A stretch of DNA of 64,000 nt from Bacteroidales bacterium (lineage in GTDB: Bacteria; Bacteroidota; Bacteroidia; Bacteroidales; WCHB1-69). The stretch spans positions 42,553 through 106,552 of the forward strand of contig JAEEKX010000039.1 of the NCBI GenBank assembly GCA_016288655.1, read 5' to 3'. The notes under the pieces were generated by a model that was not told the origin of the DNA, did no database searches, and saw nothing but the letters and a program-made list of their open reading frames with translations. The position numbers and the translations under genes were made by a program. Positions 33,589 to 35,703 of this stretch are shown here, one piece after another. The stretch's first letter is position 1. Each line of letters begins with the position of its first letter.

Positions 33589-34122
33589 TTACCTTGGTTG
33601 GTTTTCCTGTAACTGTCCGCACTCCCGCAAAGCATCAAGGAGCGAGTCAACCGTCAGGTTTTCTCCCTTGACTGTTAGATGCGCCTTGGAATAATATCGC
33701 TCCCTAACCTTCAAATTATTAAAAACATAATCGGTTAGTTGCTCGGGTGTCATGCCATCGGTGAGCGGTCGGGGCTGCCGAGCACATGCCAATCTGTTGC
33801 AGAGTGAAACTGGGGAGAGTTGGATATAAACAGAGAATGCGGCCTGGTTGATCCTCTCCATCGCGCCGGCACGACAAGGGGTGCCTCCACCCGTGGCAAT
33901 TACGACGCCTTCCTGCTTCAACACTTCCTCTAGAACCACATTTTCGCATATCCTGAAGGCATTTTCCCCATATTTTTTAAAAAAATCGGGGATGGAGAGA
34001 TGGAATTTCTGTTCAAAAAGTCGGTCGGTATCGTAAAATTCGCAGCCCAATCGTGCCGACAGGCGCTTTCCCATTCTGCTCTTTCCAGCACCAGAAAATC
34101 CGACCAAAACGATTGTTTTCAT
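33589..34122 (-). CDS. aroK: Shikimate kinase
   Basis: MKTIVLVGFSGAGKSRMGKRLSARLGCEFYDTDRLFEQKFHLSIPDFFKKYGENAFR; VIATGGGTPC. Confidence 0.93.
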   Translation of the reverse strand: MKTIVLVGFSGAGKSRMGKRLSARLGCEFYDTDRLFEQKFHLSIPDFFKKYGENAFRICENVVLEEVLKQEGVVIATGGGTPCRAGAMERINQAAFSVYIQLSPVSLCNRLACARQPRPLTDGMTPEQLTDYVFNNLKVRERYYSKAHLTVKGENLTVDSLLDALRECGQLQENQPR

Positions 34123-34168
34123 ACCTACAAAAAAACCTATTGCATTCACATACAATAGGTTACTTTAG

Positions 34169-34239
34169 AGGTCACGAGCAGAGTCGCACTGCTTTAACTG
34201 GTTTTGCAGACCAGCGCCTGACTGTTCGGCCACATGACC
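34169..34239 (-). tRNA. tRNA-Cys (GCA)
   Basis: Minus strand: acceptor GGTCATG/CGTGACC with U73, anticodon arm CTGGT-CTGCAAA-ACCAG (anticodon GCA); TATTTTTG promoter on the minus strand at 34250-34257. Confidence 0.93.
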
Positions 34240-34328
34240 TTTCACGCTGCAAAAATACGAAAATTTTTGATATAAAACCATTTGTCTAAAAAAATTTTTC
34301 ACAACCCAAGAAAAAACAAAAAAAATTG

Positions 34329-34336
34329 TATTTTTG
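34329..34336 (+). promoter_or_regulatory. -7 promoter element (TATTTTTG) of the Cys-rich lipoprotein gene
   Basis: TAnnTTTG consensus 36 bp upstream of the ATG. Confidence 0.5.
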
Positions 34337-34371
34337 CACCTCGAAATTTGTTTCACAAAAAAATAAAAAAA

Positions 34372-34770
34372 ATGAAAAAATTAATGATGCTTTTGATTGC
34401 TTGCTGTCTGGTTTTCAGCGCTTGCAACAACGAACAGAACACTGAAAACAAAGATCAGCAAAACGCTCAAGAGCCGCAGAAGACTGAACAAACCTGCAAT
34501 AAACAAGCCGATGAGGGTTGCTGCCAAGGCGAAAAGAAATGCGAATGCCCCGACGCCGCCTGCAAAGAAAACTGCTGCAAGGATTGCAAATGTGAAAAAT
34601 GTCCTTGCCAGTGCAAAGAAGGCGAGAAGTGCTGCAAGAACGCATGCGACAGCCAAAAGTGCGACGGTAAGGATTGCCAGTGCAAAGAGGGTAAGGATTG
34701 CACCTGCGAGAACTGCAAAGGCAAGACCTGCAAAAATGCTTGCGAAAAATCTTGCGAAAAGACGAAATAG
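34372..34770 (+). CDS. Cysteine-rich, metallothionein-like lipoprotein
   Basis: MKKLMMLLIACCLVFSAC lipoprotein signal; mature 115-aa region with 26 Cys (CC, CxC, CxxC), many Lys/Glu, no aromatic or His residues. Confidence 0.8.
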   Translation: MKKLMMLLIACCLVFSACNNEQNTENKDQQNAQEPQKTEQTCNKQADEGCCQGEKKCECPDAACKENCCKDCKCEKCPCQCKEGEKCCKNACDSQKCDGKDCQCKEGKDCTCENCKGKTCKNACEKSCEKTK

Positions 34771-34816
34771 TTCTTTCACTTACTATCATCTAAAGGTTGC
34801 TTAGTCAACCTTTTTA

Positions 34817-34889
<73 letters not shown>

Positions 34890-34911
34890 CTTTTTTTTTA
34901 TCTTTTTTTTA

Positions 34912-35703
34912 ATGGAAGATCCTCGTACAGAAGCATTTAAGCGCCTATTGGACATCATGGACGAACTTCGCGTGAAGTGTCCGTGGGATAGCAAACAAAC
35001 CTTCGAAACCCTCCGCTGCCTCACCATCGAAGAGACTTACGAACTGACCGACGCCATCATCGAGCATAAACCGGACGAGATGCGCGGGGAATTAGGAGAC
35101 CTGATGCTGCACTTGGTCTTCTATGCCAAGATTGCCGACGAAAAAGGACTTTTCAACATTACCGACGTACTGAACGGCATCTGCGAAAAACTGATTCGCC
35201 GCCATCCTCACATTTTCGGCACAGAACACGTGAACGATGCGGAAGACGTGAAGATAAACTGGGAAAAGATCAAGTTGAAAGAGGGAAACCGCTCCGTGCT
35301 GGGTGGAGTTCCCAATTCGTTACCTGCCATGGTCAAGGCCTACCGAATCCAAGACAAAGCCCATGGTGTCGGATTCGACTGGGACAACGGCGAACAAGTT
35401 TGGGAAAAAGTGGAAGAGGAAATGGCCGAGTTCAAAGCCGAGATGAATCACGACACACCAAATCGGGAGGAGGAGTTCGGCGACCTACTTTTCGCACTCA
35501 TCAACTACGCTAGACACAACAACATACACCCCGAGGATGCTCTCGAAAAGACCAACAAAAAGTTCATCGCCCGCTTCAAATTCATGGAGGAGAAGGCCAA
35601 ACAACAAGGCAAAAGTATTGCCGCATTGAATTTGGATGAAATGGAAGTTTTATGGCAGAGTGCAAAGCAGGAATTGGCTCACCAACACACTAAGGAATCC
35701 TAA
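34912..35703 (+). CDS. mazG: Nucleoside triphosphate pyrophosphohydrolase MazG
   Basis: LRVKCPWDSKQTFETLRCLTIEETYELTDAIIEHKPDEMRGELGDLMLHLVFYAKIA; EEEFGDLLFALINYARH. Confidence 0.96.
   Translation: MEDPRTEAFKRLLDIMDELRVKCPWDSKQTFETLRCLTIEETYELTDAIIEHKPDEMRGELGDLMLHLVFYAKIADEKGLFNITDVLNGICEKLIRRHPHIFGTEHVNDAEDVKINWEKIKLKEGNRSVLGGVPNSLPAMVKAYRIQDKAHGVGFDWDNGEQVWEKVEEEMAEFKAEMNHDTPNREEEFGDLLFALINYARHNNIHPEDALEKTNKKFIARFKFMEEKAKQQGKSIAALNLDEMEVLWQSAKQELAHQHTKES

Follow-up and report, generated by a model that had tools for sequence, protein, structure and literature searches.

The question raised by this locus is how a lipoprotein with 26 cysteines in a mature region of 115 residues would function outside the cytoplasm. 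Its gene (34372-34770) lies in a stretch of 64,000 nucleotides from the genome of a gut-type Bacteroidales bacterium, and this whole stretch is called the window here. The frame bears out two statements of a preliminary description of the DNA, namely the lipoprotein signal with its cysteine-rich mature region and the complete lack of Phe, Trp, Tyr, His, Ile, Leu, Val and Met in the mature part. The translation consists of the signal peptide MKKLMMLLIACCLVFSA followed by the mature chain CNNEQNTENKDQQNAQEPQKTEQTCNKQADEGCCQGEKKCECPDAACKENCCKDCKCEKCPCQCKEGEKCCKNACDSQKCDGKDCQCKEGKDCTCENCKGKTCKNACEKSCEKTK, the split being at the lipid-bearing Cys18, and the mature chain contains 26 Cys (the lipobox Cys counted), 22 Lys, 15 Glu and 8 Asp. 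Its first 24 residues form a linker, and the remaining 25 Cys all fall within the last 91 residues. Judging mainly from sequence comparisons, we consider it probable that the protein is an envelope-tethered metal-thiolate buffer, which would be functionally metallothionein-like yet located outside the cytoplasm.

The composition of the chain, rather than the arrangement of its cysteines, is the distinctive feature. The CC, CxC and CxxC motifs pointed out in the preliminary description are present, but they are not special: compared with composition shuffles of the window protein, CC and CxxC (3 each) were slightly rarer than expected (6.6 and 6.5), CxC was at chance level (6 versus 6.5 expected), and CxxxxC showed a slight enrichment (10 versus 6.3 expected, P 0.046). 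Given its composition, the Cys spacing of the protein is unremarkable. At the DNA level, the gene contains imperfect in-frame repeats of 15-28 nucleotides, as expected for a chain that grows by duplication. An AlphaFold model computed from the single sequence had no confident fold, with a mean predicted local distance difference test score (pLDDT) of 47.8, a value to be read in the light of the usually poor single-sequence models of low-complexity proteins. This low score would fit an apo metallothionein-like chain that folds only around its ligands, and it is not specific to such chains.

To place the protein, its relatives had to be found by position, since single-sequence searches with the window protein gave mostly signal-peptide matches; the real relatives were recovered through synteny with the neighboring mazG gene. 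These relatives share a layout of signal peptide, linker, CC, a core of ~80 residues, a second CC and a low-complexity tail. The core has a consensus near MTEEQKAxxxxWxxWxNxTDExKxELIxKxKAxxD...AKKAEFExKxANWDNLTLDEQKALxDE, with two N-x-T-x-E-x-Q-type stretches, and its sequence pattern looks helical. A profile of 11 members matched 94 of the 104 genomes of the taxonomic family of the host at E <= 0.001, and 81 of these reached E <= 1e-13; weaker matches are largely signal-peptide hits. With a profile of 19 members run over 393 genomes of the order, 14 more genomes from five further families (f3, f18, f34, f81 and f101) were added, while in a draw of 396 genomes of the phylum the only genome that matched in this type of search was the window's own. 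No Pfam or NCBIfam model scored above its cut-off in the family members scanned; the family is absent from both databases and has no name. Two side observations belong here. In genus g17, members L047, L048 and L051 carry runs of a 7-residue unit, CEAKKAE, in the core, which would place Cys on one face of the presumed helix. Additionally, very short acidic lipoproteins of ~61-110 residues, composed of MKKLMALLVVAGMVFVACNN and a tail rich in E, A, P and V, are common in the same taxonomic family (L086-L105), with one in the window's own genome (L003, position 1501); they contain 1-2 Cys, and their start resembles that of the PG1828 lipoprotein.

The tails of the relatives provide the most informative evidence. 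The signal peptide is kept in the relatives, as the preliminary description had proposed to check, whereas the Cys spacing is not conserved; what persists is the Cys-richness itself. Two close relatives, L021 and L022, are 86% identical over their aligned part, yet the region behind the core contains 24 Cys in the first and 6 in the second. Most relatives contain 7-19 Cys, compared with 25 in the window protein (lipid Cys excluded). The lack of conserved spacing had been named in advance as a finding that would speak against a metallothionein-like protein; it is a poor yardstick for this family, since the tails change rapidly in length and spacing but stay Cys/His-rich. Proteins from family f81 are rich in both residues, with 14-21 His, and tails such as GHHGCGHKCEGKCHGEK... 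(L059-L063) show the swap between Cys and His. Members L073 and L075 of family f18 have the same core, and their tails contain 10-11 His and lack Cys, which leaves the lipid Cys as the only one. In these two proteins, the His-only tail HIHQHNEAEHNHSGHNHSHDGHQHGKK (position 1501 on) is followed by a further conserved stretch, APQLKDVKINNVPM. One member, L079, retains the core and has neither Cys nor His there, so the tail is not obligatory.

Cys and His both bind soft or borderline metals. The interchange of the two residues in the tails fits a metal role and is the strongest sequence argument for one. It also bears on a second explanation, in which the protein is a sacrificial thiol buffer at the surface that consumes peroxide, hypochlorite or electrophiles, or holds persulfides, with no specific metal role. 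A very high thiol content with unfixed spacing would suit such a buffer, as would the oxidants of the host that a presumed anaerobe has to face. However, His performs poorly as such a scavenger, and Cys-to-His swaps in homologous tails are therefore hard to explain; we regard this explanation as improbable.

A third explanation, which the preliminary description had offered as a disulfide-crosslinked surface layer, is that the protein resembles chlamydial OmcA and that Cys pairs crosslink its copies with one another and with other envelope proteins, stiffening the outer membrane. Three observations disfavor such a network and favor, on sequence grounds, metal-thiolate chemistry. First, DsbA (PF01323), DsbB (PF02600) and VKOR (PF07884) were not found above cut-off in any of 31 genomes, the window's included, a result that covers incomplete metagenome-assembled genomes (MAGs) and leaves room for unknown disulfide catalysts; control genomes matched the three families in 8, 6 and 3 cases, respectively. 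Second, when the lipid Cys is left out of the count, 23 of 48 members have an odd number of Cys (25 in the window protein), so there is no bias toward even numbers and no sign of Cys pairing. Third, some members have His in place of Cys, and His cannot form disulfides. The tail counts of L021 and L022 likewise argue against a fixed network. The crosslinked layer has thus lost ground and appears to be a rather unlikely explanation, while the envelope metal buffer suggested alongside it has gained from the His-for-Cys tails and from the undetected catalysts and is now partly supported. The accompanying remark that thiols outside the cytoplasm are normally oxidized transfers poorly to a genome with no matches to DsbA, DsbB or VKOR.

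We infer the following mechanism for the metal-thiolate buffer. After export, the protein would be lipidated at Cys18 and anchored in the envelope. The exported chain would remain reduced, because known periplasmic disulfide catalysts were not detected and the host is presumably an anaerobe. Its 25 free thiolates, with their charge balanced by Lys, would then wrap soft metal ions (Zn, Cu(I) or similar), and folding would occur only upon binding. Metallothioneins with 20-30 Cys suggest, by analogy, that each chain could hold perhaps 7-12 ions, and metals would be buffered or detoxified in this way in the periplasm or at the surface.

Several points weigh against this mechanism. The three tests described above, even when taken together, fall short of proving metal binding, and other thiol oxidants or exposure to oxygen could still form disulfides. 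Beside the window gene, no gene for metal transport, metal sensing or resistance was recognized; among genera, the gene neighbors vary, and the clusters that were read contain no recognizable metal genes. A Pfam scan of the window protein returned no family at E <= 1, including the metallothionein family PF02069, and a scan of the PDB gave a low-complexity match alone and no related solved structure. Furthermore, the members with His only are distant, and their tails may have arisen separately. Matches to serum albumin (E about 0.02), apicomplexan MIC4 (E 0.0025) and DUF1825 were set aside as products of chance or composition.

In its overall structure, the window protein, the extreme case of this family, differs from its relatives in one major respect. 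The family alignment revealed that the ~80-residue core is entirely missing and that only the linker and the Cys-rich chain remain; residues 1-51 match the 19-member profile (E 8.7e-8). The earlier statement that no hydrophobic core is possible thus holds for the window member and fails as a trait of the family, as the core domain of the relatives contains Trp, Phe and Leu. All congeners with the locus and nearly all outgroups possess the core; the parsimonious interpretation is therefore that it was lost in the window lineage and that a longer Cys-rich chain was kept. The family profile found no core-bearing copy elsewhere in the window genome, which is 93% complete. The 20 weak family hits that were read included no other core-less, Cys-rich protein; all were lipoproteins of different types with few Cys, most of them small and acidic. 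An assembly error in this one MAG is a possible source of the missing core; such an error would have had to preserve the frame, the promoter and the terminator. The window protein shares the signal peptide and linker, the genomic position and the Cys-rich tail with the family and lacks the core with its N-x-T-x-E-x-Q-type stretches, so we classify it as the core-less orthologue of this slot and not as a full member.

Core loss raises a fourth explanation, in which the core carries the function of the family, for example as an envelope chaperone or stress protein resembling LTxxQ/Spy, with the Cys tail as an add-on and the window gene as a decaying leftover that is missing the functional part. 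In favor of this view, conservation in other genomes is highest in the core, whose N-x-T-x-E-x-Q stretches are reminiscent of LTxxQ proteins, and the Cys-less L079 retains it and has a sub-threshold match to DUF3106 (E 0.005). On the other hand, an intact frame, a promoter and 25 Cys instead of the usual 7-19 are unlike decay. Metal_resist (PF13801) was unmatched in all 104 genomes of the taxonomic family (best E 0.19 among the members of one family alignment), and the core profile found no relevant solved structure. We judge this explanation unlikely as well, if slightly less so than the two preceding ones.

The surroundings of the gene, summarized in Table 1, indicate that the open reading frame is a genuine gene. 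At a slot bounded by two tRNA genes, congeners retain its start codon, its signal peptide and a promoter box, and downstream of the stop codon lies a stem-loop with a U-run. The -7 promoter consensus of Bacteroidetes is TAnnTTTG. The TATTTTTG box is kept upstream of the gene in congeners at the same tRNA-bounded position, and one of the eight aligned genomes has TAATTTTG at the box. The conserved box and start, together with the hairpin ahead of tRNA-Thr, point to a probably monocistronic gene whose start is under constraint.

Table 1. Features of the lipoprotein locus in window coordinates.
Feature	Position	Strand	Basis or remark
Shikimate kinase, synteny anchor	33589..34122	-	PF01202, E 1.4e-35
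tRNA-Cys (GCA), divergent neighbor	34168..34239	-	Kept in 7/7 congeners having both flanks
-7 promoter box TGTATTTTTGCA, Bacteroidetes type (TAnnTTTG)	34327..34338	+	Conserved, 8 aligned genomes
Cys-rich lipoprotein gene	34372..34770	+	132 residues and TAG; open frame; orthologues in same slot of 8 congeneric genomes
Signal peptide, residues 1-17	34372..34422	+	MKKLMMLLIACCLVFSA; predicted cleavage before lipid-bearing Cys18; sequence
Polar linker, residues 18-41	34423..34494	+	Cys-free except Cys18; sequence and family alignments
Cys-rich domain, residues 42-132	34495..34767	+	25 Cys in 91 residues; occupies the place of the core and tail of relatives
Terminator-like hairpin	34792..34815	+	8-bp stem, 6-nt loop, U-run; -7.5 kcal/mol, z -3.43; between gene and tRNA-Thr
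tRNA-Thr (CGT), downstream neighbor	34817..34890	+	Bounds the same slot in congeners
MazG-type nucleotide pyrophosphohydrolase, synteny anchor	34912..35703	+	PF03819, E 1.6e-33

The slot itself is stable within most of the genus. A search with the MazG protein found a match in 9 of the 13 genomes, the window's own included, and in all seven other genomes for which both flanks were fetched, the interval from tRNA-Cys to tRNA-Thr encodes a Cys-rich lipoprotein of 155-201 residues. In the eighth congener (G002, locus L004), which is close to a contig end, the tRNA flanks were matched at the DNA level; the start codon and the signal peptide of the slot gene are conserved among all eight. Profile and protein searches of congeners G003, G005, G006 and G009 gave no match for mazG, shikimate kinase or the core-bearing family, which suggests a sub-clade that lost or rearranged the locus. 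We also observed that tRNA-Cys diverges ~130 bp upstream of a gene in which about a fifth of the codons specify Cys, and that this adjacency is fixed across the genus. A functional tie between the two was considered; no tRNA-Cys was found inside the ~1.5-kb flanks of family members in other genera, and the adjacency is thus probably incidental.

Of greater interest than the window gene is the unnamed family to which it leads. In its broadest form, our proposal is that this Bacteroidales family is a membrane-tethered extracytoplasmic metallothionein of Dsb-less bacteria, made possible by a periplasm that stays reducing, with tails that lengthen and shorten through codon repeats and switch between Cys and His, and with a window member reduced to the metal sponge alone; as a whole, this proposal is tentative, and we give it somewhat less than an even chance. 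If true, anaerobic Bacteroidales would be able to buffer metals beyond the cytoplasm, either at the cell surface or on the outer face of the inner membrane, which would have a bearing on how gut bacteria face metal withholding by the host, dietary Zn and Cu, and sulfide. The general idea that the lack of a Dsb system opens the envelope to thiol-based metal chemistry becomes testable in this widespread, unannotated family of thiol- or His-tailed lipoproteins from bacteria without known disulfide catalysts.

To understand how the window protein relates to known systems, we compared it with cysteine-rich and exported metal-binding proteins; a literature search on periplasmic metallothioneins and on Cys-rich Bacteroidales lipoproteins found nothing relevant. 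Metallothioneins are regarded as cytosolic, because thiols outside the cytoplasm usually oxidize, and SmtA has roughly 9 Cys. The window protein resembles SmtA/BmtA (PF02069) and mycobacterial MymT in being small and Cys-rich (26 of 115 mature residues), in having no aromatic or hydrophobic residues where those proteins have few or none, in its interleaved Cys and Lys and in having no predicted fold in the absence of ligand. It differs in its 25 tail Cys and in its location, which the predicted lipoprotein signal peptide, conserved across the family, places outside the cytoplasm; additionally, the core domain of its relatives is absent from metallothioneins. The PG1828 lipoprotein family (NF050142) is similar in the signal peptide and the start of the linker, but only the N-terminus aligns, and every score was under the 50-bit cut-off. 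The periplasmic LTxxQ/Spy-ZraP/Metal_resist proteins (PF13801) are also exported, small and helical, some bind metal, and their T-x-E-Q-type motifs are like those in the core of the relatives, which the window member lacks. OmcA, a 9-kDa Cys-rich outer membrane lipoprotein, is a component of a structural envelope complex in chlamydiae (PMC2811131); the two share small size, a high Cys content and a lipid anchor, but our searches detected no Dsb system, and the number of Cys varies among the present proteins. Csp1 is exported by Tat and stores ~13 Cu(I) inside a prefolded, Cys-lined four-helix bundle (PMC7558416). It is likewise exported with many Cys, and in the core of some relatives (L047-L051) Cys recurs every 7 residues; in contrast, most Cys of the present family lie in a low-complexity tail, and the mature window chain has no Pfam match and no hydrophobic residues with which to form a bundle. 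Beyond small size and Cys-rich composition, the window protein carries no defining sequence feature of bacterial metallothioneins or Csp proteins, and by analogy of function these two groups are its closest counterparts.
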